Assembly: GCA_022769545.1 (NCBI GenBank)
Contig: JALEJS010000024.1
Span: 1-64,000 of the forward strand
Direction: 5' to 3'
Origin: Blautia sp.
GTDB taxonomy: Bacteria > Bacillota > Clostridia > Lachnospirales > Lachnospiraceae
Length of the DNA stretch: 64,000 nucleotides
This document shows positions 54,891 to 62,978 of this stretch, piece after piece. Numbering within the stretch: position 1 is the stretch's first letter; each line of letters begins with the position of its first letter. Position numbers and translations under genes: made by a program. The notes beneath the pieces are model-generated. The model made no database searches and was not told the origin of the DNA. It saw only the letters and a program-made list of their open reading frames with translations.

Positions 54891-54919
54891 TTGACACATG
54901 GCCATATTTGTGGTAAAAA
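54891..54919 (+). promoter_or_regulatory. Putative promoter of the riboswitch operon
   Basis: TTGACA, 17 bases, TAAAAA, about 40 bases ahead of the riboswitch; -10 is weak. Confidence 0.5.
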
Positions 54920-54954
54920 AATAGTATCCGAATTGAATATGTGCAATAGTTATA

Positions 54955-55125
54955 ACGCGAAGGTTACATCATGAAATGATGTGCAAAAGAGAATCCGGTG
55001 GGAATCCGGAGCGATACCGTCACTGTGTAAGGGAGCCAAACTCAAAACCACTGGGAAACCGGGAAGGGAGGGCGGCGATGAACGAAGTCAGGAGAACTGC
55101 CCGCGCGTGGAATTTCAGGTCTGCG
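54955..55125 (+). ncRNA. Cobalamin (adenosylcobalamin) riboswitch aptamer
   Basis: The conserved cobalamin class elements are present in order: AATCCGGTGGGAATCCGGAG, then CGTCACTGTG, CCACTGGGAAACCGGGAAGG, and the B12 box region GAAGTCAGGAGAACTGCCCG. This RNA binds cobalamin and should turn the downstream operon off when cobalamin is ample. It controls cobK/cbiK- and transport-type genes in known cases. Confidence 0.93.
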
Positions 55126-55214
55126 GTATACATGACCTATGTTCTCATAGCTATACATAGTTCTTATATATTTTCGTGTGATTCATACAGAACCGTGTAT
55201 TTATGGGAAAGGAA

Positions 55215-55243
55215 GCGGCTGCAGAGCGCAGCCGCGTTTTTTT
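55215..55243 (+). terminator. Riboswitch expression-platform terminator
   Basis: Stem gcggctgc/gcagccgc with a five-base loop and TTTTTTT, about 90 bases after the aptamer and 45 bases before the chelatase start. The likely transcription-termination output. Confidence 0.85.
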
Positions 55244-55288
55244 GCTCATTTCATCCGGAAATATATGAAGAAAAAAGAGGATAAAAAA

Positions 55289-56503
55289 ATGAAAAGAAAA
55301 ACGTTGGTAGCTTTACTTTCAGCAATTTCCGTAACTTGCGGAATGTTTTCGGCAGGCAGTGTTTCCGTCATTGCAGAAGAGACAGCTGCAGAAGAGGAAG
55401 TACAGGAGGAATCCGGGGATGCAGATCAGGCTGCAGCGGATCATGTGGCTGAACTGATTGACAAGATCTATGTACAGGAAAGAACCGAGACGACCGATGA
55501 GGACTGTACAGCAGCCAAAGAGGCGTGGGACAGCCTCTCAGATGTACAGAAGGAACTGGTAGAAGGAGAGGAAGCCAGCCCGGATTATTTTGGACTGGAT
55601 ACCGGAGATGCATCCGGAGATGATGTACGAAATGCGGATGAAATCGGAGAGAATGAGCTGCTTGTCGTAAGCTTCGGTACTTCCTATAATGACAGCCGTA
55701 TCGAAGATATCAAAGGAATCGAGGATGCACTTCAGGAAGCATATCCGGACTGGTCCGTGAGAAGAGCATTCACAGCACAGATCATCATCAATCATGTTCA
55801 GGCAAGAGACGGCGAGCAGATCGATAATATGCAGCAGGCACTGGATCGTGCTGTTGCAAACGGCGTAAAAAATCTTGTGGTTCAGCCGACGCATCTGATG
55901 CATGGTGCAGAATACGATGAGATGACCGAGGCGATTGATGCATATCGCGATCAGTTCGAGACCGTTGCTGTCGCAGAACCGATGCTCGGCGAGGTGGGTG
56001 ACGACGCATCCGTAATTAACGAAGATAAGGCAGCCGTTGCCAAAGCCGTTGCTGAAGCAGCAGTGGCAGATGCCGGATATGACAGCATGGAAGCAGCTGC
56101 AGAAGATGGAACCGCCATTGTATTCCTCGGACATGGAACCTCCCATACAGCGAAGATATCCTACAGCCAGATGCAGACGCAGATGAATGAGCTCGGATAC
56201 ACCAATGCATTTATCGGTACCGTAGAAGGAGAGCCGGAAGAAACCGCCTGTGATGCAGTTGTGGAATCGGTGAAGGATGCCGGATTCAGCAAAGTCATTC
56301 TTCGTCCTCTTATGGTGGTCGCAGGTGACCATGCCAATAATGATATGGCAGGTGCGGAAGAGGATTCCTGGAAGAGCATCTTTGAAGCATCCGGAAGCTT
56401 TGACAGTGTGGATGCACAGATTGCCGGACTTGGAAGAATTGATGCTGTGAAGCAGCTTTACGTAGAGCATACAAAAGCAGCCATTGATTCTGTCGCTGAA
56501 TAA
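55289..56503 (+). CDS. cbiK: Secreted sirohydrochlorin cobaltochelatase, CbiK-like
   Basis: 404 residues. Start at 55289 with AAGAGGA ahead; a signal peptide (residues 5-28, ends SVIA|EE) puts it outside the membrane. An acidic helical module (about 45-85, with CTAAKEAWDSLSDVQKELV) precedes the chelatase core: ELLVVSFGTSYNDSR, PTHLMHGAEYDEM (His202, His205), FLGHGTSHTAKISYSQMQ (His282, His286) and RPLMVVAGDHANNDMAG (His348). CbiK inserts Co2+ into sirohydrochlorin in anaerobic cobalamin synthesis; an extracellular copy suggests metal or tetrapyrrole capture. First gene of the riboswitch operon. Confidence 0.85.
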   Translation: MKRKTLVALLSAISVTCGMFSAGSVSVIAEETAAEEEVQEESGDADQAAADHVAELIDKIYVQERTETTDEDCTAAKEAWDSLSDVQKELVEGEEASPDYFGLDTGDASGDDVRNADEIGENELLVVSFGTSYNDSRIEDIKGIEDALQEAYPDWSVRRAFTAQIIINHVQARDGEQIDNMQQALDRAVANGVKNLVVQPTHLMHGAEYDEMTEAIDAYRDQFETVAVAEPMLGEVGDDASVINEDKAAVAKAVAEAAVADAGYDSMEAAAEDGTAIVFLGHGTSHTAKISYSQMQTQMNELGYTNAFIGTVEGEPEETACDAVVESVKDAGFSKVILRPLMVVAGDHANNDMAGAEEDSWKSIFEASGSFDSVDAQIAGLGRIDAVKQLYVEHTKAAIDSVAE

Positions 56504-56528
56504 GTAAAAATACAGAACAGAAAAAAAC

Positions 56529-56562
56529 ACTGCCCGGATGCTTTTCCTGCATTCCGGGCAGT
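56529..56562 (+). terminator. Intercistronic hairpin after cbiK
   Basis: Ten-base perfect stem (actgcccgga with tccgggcagt) with a 14-base loop and no T-run; likely an attenuator or RNA-stability element rather than a full stop. Confidence 0.5.
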
Positions 56563-56585
56563 CACTGTAAGAGGAGAGAATGAAG

Positions 56586-57380
56586 ATGAAACGATTTTTC
56601 GCAATGATTTTGTCAATCCTGGGGATACAGGCTGTGCTGATGGGGGCCTGTACCGTACTTGCTTCAGAAATTCCGGAGGATGGTGTATATCGTGCCATAT
56701 TTGACACAGACAGCAGCATGTTTCATGTAAATGAAGCAAATGACGGTCGGGGAATCCTTACCGTGGAAGATGGAAAAATGACAATTCATGTCAGTCTTGC
56801 CTCCAAAGGTATTCTGAATCTTTTTGCAGGTCTTGCAGAGGACGCAAAAAAGGATGGGGCAGAGCTGCTTCAGCCAACCACAGATACCGTGACCTACAGC
56901 GACGGCATGACAGAAGAAGTGTATGGTTTCGATATTCCGGTTCCTGCGCTGGATGAGGAATTTGATGTTGCACTTATCGGGAAAAAGGGTAAATGGTATG
57001 ATCATAAAGTCTGCGTATCTGATCCGGTTGCAGAAGACAGCAGTTCTTCTGTGGAGCTGGAAGACGGTGATTACACCATGGAAGTAACATTTGCAGGCGG
57101 AACCGGCAAAGCAACCGTAGAATCTCCTGCATCAGTTCGGATCGCAGAAGGAAAAGCCATGGCCACGATCGTATGGAGCAGTCCGAATTATGACTATATG
57201 ATCGTAGACGGAGAAAAATATGAACTCACGAACACGGATGGAAATTCGGTCTTTGAGATTCCGATCGCTGCGTTTGATACGGAACTGCAGGTAATTGCGG
57301 ACACGACAGCGATGAGTACACCTCACGAAATTGAGTATACACTGATATTTGATTCCACATCCGCGAAAAAGGCAGAATAA
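56586..57380 (+). CDS. Secreted two-domain beta-rich protein, NEAT-like, of unknown ligand
   Basis: 264 residues. Start at 56586 (9 bases from GAGGAG); 56580 is too close. Signal segment about residues 3-27; a Cys at about residue 22 (MGAC) is a weak lipobox alternative. Two similar domains follow (about 29-142 and 148-255), each starting with DG(V/D)Y and containing beta strands and a tyrosine-rich loop (SPNYDYMIVDGEKYEL). This loosely resembles iron-transport-associated (NEAT) domains that bind heme, but I cannot confirm it. Two bases separate it from the binding-protein gene, so it belongs to the same operon. Confidence 0.68.
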   Translation: MKRFFAMILSILGIQAVLMGACTVLASEIPEDGVYRAIFDTDSSMFHVNEANDGRGILTVEDGKMTIHVSLASKGILNLFAGLAEDAKKDGAELLQPTTDTVTYSDGMTEEVYGFDIPVPALDEEFDVALIGKKGKWYDHKVCVSDPVAEDSSSSVELEDGDYTMEVTFAGGTGKATVESPASVRIAEGKAMATIVWSSPNYDYMIVDGEKYELTNTDGNSVFEIPIAAFDTELQVIADTTAMSTPHEIEYTLIFDSTSAKKAE

Positions 57381-57382
57381 TT

Positions 57383-58528
57383 ATGAAAAAAACAGTTCTT
57401 CAATTTATTACGGTACTGATATGTTTACTGATGTACACACCATGTATTTACGCTTCGGAGGAAGATACCGATTCTGTTTCTCTGCCCGGACTGACGTTTG
57501 ATCACAGCATGGAGCTTTCCTATGCGGAAGAATTCCATGTGGATTATTACGAAGATGGATATGCCCTGATCACCATTGAGCAGGAAGGACAGTATCTGGT
57601 TGTTCCGGAAGGAAAAGAGGTGCCGGAAGATCTGGACGTATCTGTTACGGTACTGAAGCAGCCGCTGAATCAGGTCTATCTGGTCGCAACTTCTGCCATG
57701 GATCTTTTCCGGGCTATCGATTGTATGGACCGAATTCGCCTGTCCGGAACCAGGGAAGACGGATGGTATATTCCGGAAGCTGTGGAGGAAATGAAGGAAG
57801 GAAATATCATTTACGCAGGAAAGTACAATGCTCCGGATTACGAGCAGATCCTGAATCAGAGCTGTGGGCTCGCAGTAGAGTCTACGATGATTCATCACAA
57901 TCCGGAGGTGAAAGAAAAACTGGAACAGTTTGGAATACCTGTTCTGGTGGAGCGTTCCAGCTATGAAAATCATCCTCTTGGAAGGACAGAATGGATGAAG
58001 CTGTACGCAGTGCTGTTTGATAAAGAAGAACTTGCAGAACAGCTCTTTCAGGAACAGACCGACAGACTGGATGCGGTTCTGTCCGCGGACGCGACCGGAA
58101 AAACAGTAGCCTTTTTCTATATTAATTCCACCGGAGCAGTCAATATCCGCAAAAGCAATGATTATGTTTCCAGAATGATTGAACTGGCAGGAGGAACCTA
58201 TCTTCCTGAGGATACGGGAGAGGATGATAATGCATTGTCAACGATGAATATGCAGATGGAAGAGTTTTATGCAAAGGCAAAGGAAGCAGATTATATCATA
58301 TATAACAGTACGATTGACGGGGAACTGAACACGATCGATGATCTGCTTACCAAGAGCAGTCTTCTTTCTGATTTCAAAGCGGTAAAAAATCAGAATGTGT
58401 GGTGTACGGGCAAGAATCTGTTTCAGGAGACGACCGGTCTCGGAACCATGATCGAGGACATTCACACCTTACTGACGACAGAGGATCCTTCTCTGGATAA
58501 ACTCACCTACATGCATCGCCTGAAATGA
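57383..58528 (+). CDS. FecB/BtuF-type ABC substrate-binding protein
   Basis: 381 residues. Signal peptide ends IYASEE; no proper lipobox. The mature part has the two-lobed class III pattern: VYLVATSAMDLFRAIDCMDRIRLSG, GKYNAPDYEQILNQSCGLAVEST, FGIPVLVERSSYENHPLGRTEWMKLYAVLF, and a C-terminal SDFKAVKNQNVW. With the FecCD-like permease and ATPase that follow, it would import a cobalamin, heme or siderophore-like ligand. The N-terminal 75 residues are longer than usual and unassigned. Confidence 0.85.
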   Translation: MKKTVLQFITVLICLLMYTPCIYASEEDTDSVSLPGLTFDHSMELSYAEEFHVDYYEDGYALITIEQEGQYLVVPEGKEVPEDLDVSVTVLKQPLNQVYLVATSAMDLFRAIDCMDRIRLSGTREDGWYIPEAVEEMKEGNIIYAGKYNAPDYEQILNQSCGLAVESTMIHHNPEVKEKLEQFGIPVLVERSSYENHPLGRTEWMKLYAVLFDKEELAEQLFQEQTDRLDAVLSADATGKTVAFFYINSTGAVNIRKSNDYVSRMIELAGGTYLPEDTGEDDNALSTMNMQMEEFYAKAKEADYIIYNSTIDGELNTIDDLLTKSSLLSDFKAVKNQNVWCTGKNLFQETTGLGTMIEDIHTLLTTEDPSLDKLTYMHRLK

Positions 58529-58596
58529 TAATATATGAGTCAGGGGACAGATGGACATAAAATACGTCGTGCACATTTGTCGTGTAACTCTAAATA

Positions 58597-58620
58597 TATG
58601 AGTTGAGGTCAAAAGGAGAT
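58597..58620 (+). repeat. Partial match to the dispersed repeat core, inverted
   Basis: TATGAGTTGAGGTCAAAAGG resembles the complement of copies 1 and 2 (tatg, then ttggggtcaaaag). Here it includes the AAGGAG site of the permease gene. A 10-base ATATATGAGT also occurs at 58531 and 58594. Confidence 0.4.
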
Positions 58621-58625
58621 CAAAC

Positions 58626-59648
58626 ATGGATGAAAGAAAACGGGCAGCAAGATATGTGTCTGCCTTTTTCATATTGGGAACATTGCTGTTCATATTTTTT
58701 GTCTGGAATGTAAATTCCGGGAGCATTCATCTTTCCGTTGGAGAAATTCTGAATATCATTTTTCGCCGTCAGGGAGAGGAAACCGCTTACAATATCATAT
58801 GGGAAATCCGTCTTCCAAGAATTCTTTCGGTGATTATTCTGGGCGGCGCACTTTCGGTTTCCGGTTTCCTTCTTCAGACTTTTTTTAACAATCCCATTGC
58901 AGGTCCGTTTGTACTGGGAATCTCTTCCGGTGCCAAGCTGGTCGTGGCACTTCTGATGATCTGTTTTCTCAGTCATTCTGTATCGATGGGTTCCGGTGCC
59001 ATGATTCTGGCTGCTTTTTTGGGATCCATGATTTCTATGGGATTTGTTCTTCTTGTGGCAAAAAAGGTACAGAATATGTCCATGCTGGTCATCAGTGGCG
59101 TCATGATCGGATATATCTGTTCCGCAATCACAGATTTTGTGGTTACTTTTGCAGATGATTCCAATATCGTAAATCTTCACAACTGGTCACTGGGAAGTTT
59201 TTCCGGCATGTCCTGGGACAATGTGACCGTAATGGCTGTCGTCGTCTGTATTTCCATGGTGATTGTATTTTTTATGTCCAAACCAATCAGTGCCTATCAG
59301 CTTGGTGAGGCATATGCGCAGAACATGGGAGTAAACATTAAGCTGTTTCGTGTTATGCTGATCCTTCTGTCCAGCGTATTGTCGGCATGCGTCACTGCTT
59401 TTGCAGGTCCGATTTCCTTTGTGGGGATCGCAGTTCCCCATATTGCAAAAAGCCTGCTGAAAACAGCCCGGCCGATTCTGGTAATTCCGGCTTGTTTTCT
59501 GGGCGGCGCTGTTTTCTGCCTGCTTTGTGATCTGATCGCACGGACCGTATTTGCACCGACAGAACTCAGCATCAGCTCCGTGACAGCTGTTTTCGGGGCC
59601 CCCGTCGTGATTTACATTATGATTCGCCGACAGAAGAAGAGGGTATGA
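58626..59648 (+). CDS. FecCD/BtuC-type ABC permease
   Basis: 340 residues, about nine to ten membrane helices. PFVLGISSGAKLVVAL, GPISFVGIAVPHIAKSLLKT and the cytoplasmic coupling segment are typical of the BtuC/FhuB/HmuU family. Partner of the following ATPase. AAGGAG precedes the ATG. Confidence 0.93.
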   Translation: MDERKRAARYVSAFFILGTLLFIFFVWNVNSGSIHLSVGEILNIIFRRQGEETAYNIIWEIRLPRILSVIILGGALSVSGFLLQTFFNNPIAGPFVLGISSGAKLVVALLMICFLSHSVSMGSGAMILAAFLGSMISMGFVLLVAKKVQNMSMLVISGVMIGYICSAITDFVVTFADDSNIVNLHNWSLGSFSGMSWDNVTVMAVVVCISMVIVFFMSKPISAYQLGEAYAQNMGVNIKLFRVMLILLSSVLSACVTAFAGPISFVGIAVPHIAKSLLKTARPILVIPACFLGGAVFCLLCDLIARTVFAPTELSISSVTAVFGAPVVIYIMIRRQKKRV

Positions 59649-59652
59649 TATT

Positions 59653-60747
59653 ATGAAATCATTTTATTTCCATACAGATCAGCTCACAGTGGGATACAAC
59701 GGCAAGCCGCTGATACGAAAAATCAATATCCAGCTTCAAAAAGGAGAGATACTGACTCTGATCGGACCGAATGGAGCCGGAAAATCCACAATTCTGAAAA
59801 GCATAACCCGCCAGCTTCAGGTAATAGGCGGAACGGTTTTCCTGGAACAGAAAAATATGAATGCCATGTCCGGTAAAGAGATATCCAGGAAGCTTTCTGT
59901 GGTCCTCACAGAACGGATGAATCCGGAACTGATGACCTGTGAAGATGTTGTGGAAACCGGGCGTTACCCGTATACCGGCACGCTGGGAATCCTTTCTGCA
60001 AAGGACCGTGAAAAAGTCAGAGAGGCCATGGAAATGGTTCATGCCTGGGATCTGAGAGAGAGGGATTTCACTGCAATCAGTGACGGTCAGAGACAGCGGA
60101 TCCTTCTTGCAAGAGCCATCTGTCAGGAGCCGGAGATCATTATCCTTGACGAACCGACTTCTTTTCTGGATATCCGTCATAAACTGGAGCTGCTTACAAT
60201 TCTGAAAAATATGGTGATGGAAAAGCAGGTTGCAGTAATCATGTCGCTGCATGAACTGGACCTGGCCCAGAAAATATCGGATAAAGTAATCTGTGTCCAT
60301 GGGGAATATATTGAGAAATACGGCACTCCGGAAGATATTTTTACTTCTGCCTATATCCGTGAACTGTATGGGATCACAAAGGGCAGCTATAATGCATCGT
60401 TCGGGTGTATTGAGATGGAACCGCCAAAGGGAGAACCGCAGGTGTTTGTCATTGGAGGAAATGGCAGTGGAATCCCATTGTTCCGGAAACTGCAGCGGCA
60501 GGGAATTCCATTTGCAGCCGGCGTACTGCATGTCAATGATGCCGATTACCAGGTGGCAAGTGCGCTTGCATGCCGTGTCGTTTCCGAAGATCCCTTTGCA
60601 TGTATTTCACAGGAACATTTTGAGCAGGCTCTGGAGCTTCTGAAACAATGCAGGACCGTCTGCTGTCCGCTGGAAGACTTCGGTCCAATGAATGAGAAAA
60701 ACAGAATCCTGGCCGAAATGGCCAGGAAAATGGGAAAGCTTGTGTGA
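59653..60747 (+). CDS. FecE/BtuD-type ABC ATPase with extra C-terminal domain
   Basis: 364 residues; ordinary FecE/BtuD proteins are about 250-260. Walker A GPNGAGKST, signature ISDGQRQR, Walker B IIILDEPTS and switch His in MSLHELDLA lie in the first 255 residues. The last 107 residues (GEPQVFVIGGNGSGIP, VLHVNDADYQVASAL) form an extra domain with a glycine-rich loop and an unknown function; such extensions recur in clostridial and archaeal cobalamin/heme ATPases. Four bases after the permease gene. Confidence 0.92.
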   Translation: MKSFYFHTDQLTVGYNGKPLIRKINIQLQKGEILTLIGPNGAGKSTILKSITRQLQVIGGTVFLEQKNMNAMSGKEISRKLSVVLTERMNPELMTCEDVVETGRYPYTGTLGILSAKDREKVREAMEMVHAWDLRERDFTAISDGQRQRILLARAICQEPEIIILDEPTSFLDIRHKLELLTILKNMVMEKQVAVIMSLHELDLAQKISDKVICVHGEYIEKYGTPEDIFTSAYIRELYGITKGSYNASFGCIEMEPPKGEPQVFVIGGNGSGIPLFRKLQRQGIPFAAGVLHVNDADYQVASALACRVVSEDPFACISQEHFEQALELLKQCRTVCCPLEDFGPMNEKNRILAEMARKMGKLV

Positions 60748-60884: not shown

Positions 60885-62978
60885 ATGGCAAGGAAAAAAG
60901 TAAACACAGCATCTGTTGAAAAGACACCTGCAAAAGCAGAGGTAAAAAAAGAAGTAAAGACAAAGGCTCCCAAAGCCGATGAAAAAAAGGTAACGACGAC
61001 TGAGGCTTCCAAGGCTGATGAGAAAAAAGAAACCAATACGCAGGCTCCCAAGGCTGAGGTAAAAGCCGCAGAAACAAAGTCAGAAGAAATAAAAGCAGAA
61101 ACGGTAAAAGAAGAAGCAGAAGTGAAACCGAAAAAACGGGCTGCAAGAAAAACAGCCGCAAAGGCGGTAAAGGAAGAAAAGGAAGAAACGCCAAAGGCGA
61201 AAACAACCAGAAAAGCCAGAACCACAAAAGCCGTGAAAGCAGCGGAAGTAACAGCAGCGGAAGAAACAGCTGTGAAGGAAAAAACAGCGGAAGAAAAAAC
61301 AGCAGAAGAAACGGTTGAAACAGCTGTGAAAAAGCCTAAGAAACGTACGGTGCGAAAAGCAAAAACCGAAGAACCAAAGGCAGCACCGGCTGAGGAAACA
61401 AAAACAGAAGAAGTAAAGAGCGAAGAACCCAAAGCAGAAGAACCGAAAACAGAAGAACCGAAAGCGGAAGAGGCAGTTGTGGAAGAGACGAAGGAAGAAG
61501 TGCCTGTTCAGGAAGTGTATTCTTCCCCTCGAAGAAGTGTTGCATTTATTGGTTCCGAATGTTATCCGTTTGTGAAGACCGGCGGACTGGGCGATGTTAT
61601 GTATGCGCTTCCGAAGGCTCTGGTAAAGCAGAACTGTGATGTGAAGGTAATCCTTCCGCGCTATAAATGTATTCCGTGGGAATATCAGCAGAAAATGGTT
61701 TATAAAGGATCCTTCCAGATGGATTTGTGTGCAGACGGAAGATCCTATTATGTTGGTATTATGGAATATGTCTGGGATGGTGTGGTATATGATTTTATTG
61801 ATAATGAAGAATTCTTCAGTGATGGAAATCCGTACACCAATCTGATCGATGATATTCCGAAATACTGCTATTTTGCAAAGGCTGCACTGGCTGCCTTGAA
61901 TTTTATGGATTGGGTTCCGGATATCATCCATTGTCATGACTGGCAGGCAGCGCTTGTTCCGGTATATTTAAGAACCATGTTTGAACATACAAAGCTGACC
62001 GGTGCAAAGACGATCCTTACAATCCATAATCTGCGGTTCCAGGGAATTTACAACATTCCCACTATCCGCTACTGGTCCGGACTGCCGGATTATGTATTCA
62101 ATAAGGATGCATTAAAGGTGGGATATCGTGATGCTAATATGTTAAAAGGCGGTCTGGCATATGCCAATGTTATCACAACCGTCAGCCATACATATGCAGG
62201 GGAAATCCAGACGGCATATTATGGTGAAAAACTGGATGCACATCTGAGATATCATTCCGGAAAGCTTCGCGGAATTGTGAACGGAATTGATTACGATATC
62301 TGGAATACAGCAACCGATTCCAGACTGTATGCAAATTATGACATAACAAACGTTCTGGAAAAGAAAAAAGAAAACAAACGCAATCTTCAGGAAGAGCTTG
62401 GACTGGTACAGGATGACCACAAGTTTGTGATCGGTCTGATTTCCAGACTGACAGATCAGAAAGGTCTGGATCTGGTAAATGCCATTATTCCACAGGTGAT
62501 GGATGAGCATACACAGATCGTTGTTCTTGGAACAGGAGATGCCGTATACGAAAATTCGTTCCGCTATTATGAAAATGCATATAAGGGAAATGTCTGCTCC
62601 AACATCATGTATGATGAGACGAGAGCTCACAAAATCTATGCAGGCGCTGATGCGCTTCTGGTTCCTTCCCAGTTTGAGCCATGTGGTCTGACACAGCTCA
62701 TTGCCATGCATTATGGTACGGTTCCGATCGTCCGTGAAACCGGCGGTCTGAAAGATACCGTAGAACCATACAACATGTTTACCAATTCCGGGAATGGATT
62801 TACATTTAACCATTATGATGCAGGTCTTCTTCTGGATGCGATCAACCGTGCCAAAACCCTGTACTTTACAAATCGCTGGTGCTGGGATGAAATGGTGCAA
62901 AGAGATATGGACAAAAACTTCTCCTGGGATAATTCCGCAAAACAGTACAAGGATCTGTATCTGGAATTAACCTGGTAA
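60885..62978 (+). CDS. glgA: Glycogen synthase with histone-H1-like N-terminal tail
   Basis: 697 residues. Residues 1-217 are low-complexity Lys/Glu/Ala/Thr with basic patches (KPKKRAARKTAAKA, KKPKKRTVRKAK) and repeated KAEEPKTEEP units. The core (218-697) is a full GlgA: FVKTGGLGDVMYALPKAL (ADP-glucose binding), HCHDWQAALVP, TIHNLRFQG, SRLTDQKGLDLV and the C-terminal GADALLVPSQFEPCGLTQ. It elongates alpha-1,4-glucan from ADP-glucose. The only ordinary start is the ATG after GGAGG at 60885, so the tail is part of the protein; a GTG at 61500 with AAGGA ahead could theoretically give a tail-less form. Confidence 0.92.
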   Translation: MARKKVNTASVEKTPAKAEVKKEVKTKAPKADEKKVTTTEASKADEKKETNTQAPKAEVKAAETKSEEIKAETVKEEAEVKPKKRAARKTAAKAVKEEKEETPKAKTTRKARTTKAVKAAEVTAAEETAVKEKTAEEKTAEETVETAVKKPKKRTVRKAKTEEPKAAPAEETKTEEVKSEEPKAEEPKTEEPKAEEAVVEETKEEVPVQEVYSSPRRSVAFIGSECYPFVKTGGLGDVMYALPKALVKQNCDVKVILPRYKCIPWEYQQKMVYKGSFQMDLCADGRSYYVGIMEYVWDGVVYDFIDNEEFFSDGNPYTNLIDDIPKYCYFAKAALAALNFMDWVPDIIHCHDWQAALVPVYLRTMFEHTKLTGAKTILTIHNLRFQGIYNIPTIRYWSGLPDYVFNKDALKVGYRDANMLKGGLAYANVITTVSHTYAGEIQTAYYGEKLDAHLRYHSGKLRGIVNGIDYDIWNTATDSRLYANYDITNVLEKKKENKRNLQEELGLVQDDHKFVIGLISRLTDQKGLDLVNAIIPQVMDEHTQIVVLGTGDAVYENSFRYYENAYKGNVCSNIMYDETRAHKIYAGADALLVPSQFEPCGLTQLIAMHYGTVPIVRETGGLKDTVEPYNMFTNSGNGFTFNHYDAGLLLDAINRAKTLYFTNRWCWDEMVQRDMDKNFSWDNSAKQYKDLYLELTW

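Follow-up and report, generated by a model that had tools for sequence, protein, structure and literature searches.

Introduction

What would a CbiK-type chelatase do outside the cytoplasmic membrane, next to a binding protein and an ABC importer? The question is raised by a 64,000-nucleotide stretch of a Blautia sp. genome (contig JALEJS010000024.1, positions 1 to 64,000; hereafter, the window). A first-pass annotation, made from the letters and their open reading frames (ORFs), had described a cobalamin riboswitch and a terminator heading an operon for a signal-peptide CbiK, a two-domain secreted protein with a possible NEAT fold, and a BtuF/C/D-like importer. It had proposed uptake of cobalt-tetrapyrroles, precursors or heme-like compounds, with metal insertion or removal at the cell surface. 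In our analysis, the exported CbiK, the NEAT fold and the B12-regulated unit were supported, as was precursor uptake as the likeliest role, and the heme cargo, the metal removal and the BtuF-like binder were not. The link with corrin-ring synthesis and with genomes lacking early tetrapyrrole steps goes beyond that account.

Organization of the locus

The annotated order of riboswitch, terminator, exported CbiK, two-domain protein and importer was confirmed:

54944..55118, + strand: cobalamin riboswitch aptamer RF00174 (covariance model, 85.7 bits against a gathering threshold of 31.5; E 1e-19)
55215..55242, + strand: terminator-like stem (55215-55235) and T run, GTTTTTTT, between the aptamer and the CbiK gene
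55289..56503, + strand: exported CbiK-type class II chelatase (PF06180, E 2.6e-70)
56580..57380, + strand: exported protein with two NEAT-like domains, 266 aa
57383..58528, + strand: exported class III substrate-binding protein (PF01497, E 9.3e-29)
58626..59648, + strand: FecCD-family permease (PF01032, E 4.2e-83)
59653..60747, + strand: ABC ATPase extended at its C terminus by about 110 residues (PF00005, E 2.7e-31)

The terminator was called on its position between the aptamer and the start codon, which outweighs the number of terminator-like sites in the whole scan (10 found, 5.1 expected in shuffles). A TTGACA at 54891, where the first-pass annotation began the unit, is followed 17 bases further on by TAAAAA; this pair was not among the sites listed by the promoter scan. 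The gene for the NEAT-like protein has a possible start at 56580, and the previously given 56586 is the second ATG.

Between the CbiK and NEAT genes lies a G+C-rich inverted repeat without a T run (56527-56565), perhaps an mRNA-stabilizing hairpin. Directly downstream of the operon is a glycogen-synthase-like ORF (60885-62978) whose N terminus is extended by a long stretch enriched in K, E, A, and T. Elsewhere in the same genome (L036, contig C29), two more cobalamin riboswitches were found close to a leucine-rich-repeat-like ORF and a secreted protein of 1950 aa, which are not known B12 genes.

Conservation of the operon and its riboswitch

Conservation was assessed in 150 genomes, drawn evenly as one per genus of the family, and in named loci, which were the best 80 of at least 588 matching stretches and a non-random set picked by similarity to the query. 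The NEAT protein was matched in 53 and PF06180 in 84 of the 150 genomes. In every one of the 80 named loci (the best 80 of at least 588), CbiK lay directly before the NEAT gene, which argues against chance adjacency, and the binding protein, permease and ATPase followed the NEAT gene in most of these 80 best matches. The gene order was thus widespread rather than unique to one assembly; carriers among the records included Blautia, Sellimonas, Roseburia, Butyrivibrio, Faecalibacterium, and Gemmiger. Fusions of CbiK with NEAT, NEAT with the binding protein, and permease with ATPase were also found.

RF00174 was detected in the 1.8 kb ahead of 33 of 36 CbiK genes linked to NEAT (35 genomes), in the same orientation as the gene. 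Two of the three misses were at contig edges and one (G010) was real. The riboswitch also preceded CbiK in seven of seven named loci tested, so in relatives it does not regulate the importer alone; together with the match ahead of the window's operon, this linkage supports a single B12-regulated unit. In two loci (L113, L144), one riboswitch stands before the CbiK-NEAT unit and another before the importer unit. Six riboswitch-led operons (L052, L063, L064, L069, L070, and L073) encoded NEAT proteins and an importer and no CbiK; in the first five of these, the NEAT-matching proteins were very large (619 to 1812 aa).

Export of the chelatase

The window CbiK consists of a signal peptide, a helical spacer and a chelatase domain (residues 123-401), with residues 124-399 matching PF06180 at 237.2 bits (cut-off 26.2). 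A rule-based test called a signal peptide without a lipobox, which bears out the annotated export and does not place the chelatase in the cytoplasm. The score against the sirohydrochlorin cobaltochelatase equivalog NF047852 was 197.1 bits, below its curated cut-off of 400. Sequence relatives in the PDB were 1qgo (S. Typhimurium CbiK), 9b86 (FetB, the second match) and 2xvx (D. vulgaris chelatase). The metal-site histidines of CbiK are given as H145 and H207 in the relevant passage of PMC7689651. Those of the window CbiK, in the motifs GHG and GDHA, line up with 1qgo, and H282 and H348 were invariant in 36 of 36 aligned CbiKs, exported or not, which argues against the exported form being a degenerate copy.

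Among the best 80 of at least 588 named loci, 77 of the 79 scored type-A CbiKs possessed an export signal (58 with a lipobox, 19 without), the rest being at contig edges. A cytoplasmic CbiK with a mis-called start was set aside on this count. The 85 genomes with CbiC over the cut-off were then divided into those with exported CbiK only (28), both kinds (17), cytoplasmic CbiK only (34) and no CbiK (6); grouping was first by adjacency to a NEAT match under 3 kb, and two genomes (G058, G121) were shifted by hand to "both". The two kinds of CbiK avoided each other (Fisher p-value 2e-6, on the first grouping of 15/28/36/6).

All 28 CbiKs of the exported-only genomes possessed an export signal, 27 of them with a lipobox. 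Where both kinds were present, 16 of 17 operon CbiKs passed the test, including that of the window's own genome; the one missed (G105) looked exported by eye. The stand-alone CbiKs examined came from 25 of the 34 cytoplasmic-only genomes and 14 of the 17 with both kinds, with none recovered from G053 at E 1e-15 and that of G010 cut by a contig end. By the same rule-based test, 35 of 38 lacked an export signal, starting at or near the chelatase domain, and in two (G028, G059) the signal call sits in a long fused N-terminal part. A first, looser census had given 81 of 83, yet two stand-alone CbiKs passed it too.

Several cytoplasmic CbiKs had unusual architectures. One (L232, G081) is fused to HemC (PF01379 in the same frame), and five (L213, L216, L218, L229, and L236) carry fused N-terminal parts of about 265-345 aa. 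In L096 and L126, a cytoplasmic-type CbiK gene is located directly ahead of the exported one.

The NEAT-like protein and the importer

The two-domain protein scored 21.6 bits against PF05031, below the cut-off of 32.8, with relatives reaching E 2.2e-9. Searches of PDB sequences with phmmer and profiles gave no match at E ≤ 1. The predicted fold of domain 2 is the NEAT fold, as had been guessed for this product; domain 1 aligned only inside tandem NEAT chains (rmsd 13-15). On these models, the protein is NEAT-like in its second domain. NEAT domains bind tetrapyrroles, and the PDB rows included IsdA with cobalt-protoporphyrin. The window's own genome encodes a second NEAT-like protein of 374 aa (L035:9566-10690, contig C46) that ends in a membrane anchor and has neither importer nor riboswitch beside it.

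The binding protein was modeled at a pLDDT of 91.3. In Foldseek, BtuF, CeuE, RhuT, and HutB all matched this model near E 1e-12, with BtuF in the first row. Given this tie among BtuF, siderophore and heme proteins, the structure does not single out BtuF, and the annotated BtuF-like character of the binding protein was not supported. Its score against the IsdE equivalog was 19.5 bits, below the cut-off of 298.65, and the best sequence match of its profile was Lmo2184 (5.7e-8), a protein with a heme role. The best NCBIfam match of the permease was BtuC (218.4 bits, under the cut-off of 334), and residues 9-337 of the ATPase matched the corrinoid ABC ATPase NF007082 (203.5 bits, under the cut-off of 537).

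Link to corrin-ring synthesis

In 42 of the 80 named loci (the best 80 of at least 588), the operon ran on, on the same strand, into cob/cbi genes. In G131, one cluster begins with the riboswitch, CbiK, NEAT, binding protein, permease, and ATPase, goes on with CbiP, CobT, CobU, CobS, CobC, CbiB, and CobD, and continues after CobD with CbiC, CbiD, CbiF, CbiG, CbiH, CbiJ-E-T, and CbiA. Seven ATPase ORFs were long. Five of these formed a single frame with CbiD (F. prausnitzii, F. longum, Gemmiger, an Oscillospiraceae isolate, and G004), one (G080) was fused to a CobQ/CbiP-type protein, and one (L123) carried neither CbiD nor CbiP. CbiD acts only during ring making, between cobalt-precorrin-5B and 6A, and is useless to an importer of finished corrinoids; its fusion to the ATPase therefore suggests that the cargo should lie upstream of the CbiD step.

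The operon context is corrin synthesis, not heme, and the proposed heme-like cargo and metal removal found no support in it. Acquisition of heme or iron-porphyrin with metal removal outside, like the role proposed for IhtB/FetB, would be in keeping with the NEAT fold, with FetB as the second PDB match of CbiK and with Lmo2184 as the best profile match of the binding protein; set against the cobalamin riboswitch, the corrin operon, the CbiD and CbiP fusions and the confinement to corrin makers described below, it appears highly improbable.

Genome distribution and missing early steps

Among the 150 genera, with one genome each, exported CbiK was present in 45 of 85 genomes with CbiC and in two of 65 without it; these two (G023, G063) are 60% and 89% complete. 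Exported-only and cytoplasmic-only genomes differed in HemC (7 of 28 versus 32 of 34), CobA (9 of 28 versus 32 of 34), SirC/Met8-like proteins (10 of 28 versus 32 of 34), CbiL (14 of 28 versus 33 of 34), and strong CbiM (7 of 28 versus 25 of 34). SirC/Met8-like was defined as PF13241 at E below about 1e-15 and strong CbiM as E below 1e-50, both thresholds being our own; weaker CbiM matches (e.g., G025, G066) were left out of the count.

Both HemC and CobA were absent from 19 of the 28 exported-only genomes, which keep corrin-ring genes and whose 19 CbiKs all have a lipobox. Incomplete assembly was set aside as the cause, as completeness is 90% or more in 15 of the 19. We also set aside a CbiX distinct from CbiK in the exported-only group, where all listed PF01903 places are, by their coordinates, on the CbiK ORF. 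Without HemC no tetrapyrrole can be made, and without CobA no precorrin-2, so these 19 carriers should need a tetrapyrrole from outside. Eleven of them (G004, G043, G066, G072, G075, G079, G092, G100, G129, G131, and G135) had no strong CbiL match and possessed later corrin genes; CbiL of G009 was under the cut-off by less than 1 bit. With no CbiL over the cut-off, sirohydrochlorin would be insufficient as cargo in the 11, which may import a ring one methylation further on or have an unrecognized enzyme for that step.

Importation of finished corrinoids (cobamides, cobinamide), with NEAT and a catalytically idle CbiK as surface binders that pass the cargo to a Btu-like transporter in an Isd-type relay, leaves the missing HemC and CobA unaccounted for. 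It is in line with the cobalamin riboswitch, the BtuC and corrinoid-transporter matches of permease and ATPase (both below cut-off), BtuF in Foldseek's first row, and the adjoining CbiP, CobT, CobU, and CobS, which serve salvage too. Hardly any genome without CbiC carries the system, although it is auxotrophs that most need to take up B12, and this, with the CbiD fusion and the retained catalytic histidines, makes such an importer unlikely in our view.

Need is not the whole story, since 24 of 57 genomes with CbiC and HemC carry the system too. One is the window's own genome, which encodes HemC, CobA, a SirC-like protein, a cytoplasmic CbiK, CbiL, CbiC, CobS, and two CbiM; with this full internal route present, the system would be a supplement. 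Two genomes with CbiC and without HemC (G062, G149) had cytoplasmic CbiK only, and five more had no CbiK, three of them (G040, G094, G142) with NEAT matches.

The association with HemC loss was also assessed, with our own script, on 20 disjoint pairs of rows from the best CbiC tree, on which HemC loss needs 20 changes. This tree is weak, with three of 82 inner branches well supported, and on supported branches the test comes down to one or two pairs and has no power. Over the 20 pairs, cytoplasmic CbiK was missing on the HemC-less side in 12 and the reverse occurred in none (p-value 5e-4), and the exported-only state went with HemC loss nine times versus none (p-value 0.004). Mere presence of exported CbiK did not do so significantly (7 versus 2, p-value 0.18). 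These pairs suggest that loss of the internal route takes the internal chelatase along and leaves the exported one in place.

The CbiM counts bear on cobalt scavenging, in which a tetrapyrrole, own or foreign, would be loaded outside by CbiK and imported mainly for its cobalt. The scarcity of strong CbiM in exported-only genomes speaks for this, but the difference was non-significant on the paired rows (3 versus 7 in 20 pairs, p-value 0.34), carriers without HemC cannot make the carrier, and no exporter was seen. We consider cobalt scavenging quite improbable.

Proposed role

On balance, we think it probable that the operon is a B12-repressed system salvaging early tetrapyrroles from outside for cobamide synthesis, with cobalt inserted outside the membrane. 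This keeps, as the likeliest role given the corrin linkage, export and riboswitch, the earlier suggestion of cobalt-tetrapyrrole or precursor uptake with metal insertion outside. Low B12 would open the riboswitch, and rings of the sirohydrochlorin or precorrin-2 kind, shed by neighbors or the host, would reach surface CbiK and be loaded with cobalt there. The cobalt-loaded ring would be bound by the NEAT domains and handed to the binding protein; the FecCD permease and ATPase would pump it in, and Cbi/Cob enzymes would finish it. Chelatase metal choice follows availability, according to a passage of PMC7689651, so a CbiK placed outside would face another pool of competing metals, a benefit that we infer.

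Early-tetrapyrrole salvage is favored by the riboswitch in 33 of 36 cases, the CbiD and CbiP fusions, the run-on into cob/cbi genes in 42 of the best 80 of at least 588 loci, the confinement to CbiC genomes and the absence of HemC and CobA. It is weakened by the six NEAT-importer operons without CbiK, the carriers with HemC, the genomes G062 and G149, the non-significant 7 versus 2 and the absence of CbiL; it would also call for an exporter or an outside source to provide the cargo, and neither is known here.

More tentatively, we raise the possibility of a class of gut Firmicutes that make no tetrapyrroles of their own, harvest them from neighbors or the host, metallate them on surface CbiK-NEAT lipoproteins and import the cobalt complex by an ABC transporter coupled, or even fused, to corrin enzymes. 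Their B12-type cofactors would come from a shared outside pool, and cobalt insertion, as the committing step of the anaerobic cobamide route, would take place outside the cytoplasmic membrane. If true, a metal-selection step of B12 synthesis would shift to the cell surface and half-finished B12 rings would become a traded good in the gut.

Comparison with known systems

The operon shares its transporter class and B12 control with BtuCDF. It differs in missing all NCBIfam cut-offs, in its surface chelatase and NEAT protein, and in its confinement to corrin makers. With the Isd heme relay, it shares a surface NEAT fold, a class III binding protein and a FecCD permease; unlike Isd, it includes a chelatase, a cobalamin riboswitch and corrin genes, and domain 2 of the window protein has HxxxY where the Isd NEAT motif is YxxxY. 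CbiK(P) of Desulfovibrio vulgaris (2xvx) is, like the window CbiK, a class II chelatase of the same family. It is periplasmic, and we know of no NEAT or importer partner for it.

Searches of an open-licence library of papers returned no paper on this operon. In a review (PMC8123684), the name "cbtFACDX" is given among the cobalt-uptake genes of a gut survey, and it is absent from the text of that survey; the operon may have been annotated earlier under a name like this. Tetrapyrrole precursor salvagers were defined from genomes, with 180 species (Shelton 2018, PMC6461909), and the carriers resemble them in having corrin genes with early steps missing. In the relevant passages of that paper, salvagers either import a precursor or rely on a novel pathway, dependence on ALA is all that was tested, and the importer is unnamed. 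The operon would supply one, and is a concrete, widespread candidate for their uptake system, with records from Blautia, Roseburia, Butyrivibrio, Faecalibacterium, and Gemmiger, among others.

The nearest known relative is the Iht/FetB system of Porphyromonas. In P. gingivalis, IhtB/FetB is described as a CbiK-like surface lipoprotein encoded with IhtCDE (passage in PMC10913741), and it is discussed as a heme/iron or Mn-porphyrin chelatase (passage in PMC13402209). Both systems encode a surface CbiK-like protein with a binding protein, a permease and an ATPase, and FetB is a sequence relative of the window CbiK. Unlike Iht, the operon includes NEAT, and the TonB receptor of Iht has no counterpart among the operon's own five genes. 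P. gingivalis is itself listed without the steps to precorrin-2 (passage in PMC6461909), as are the carriers without HemC and CobA by our counts, and the same reasoning would allow Iht/FetB to be reinterpreted in this host.
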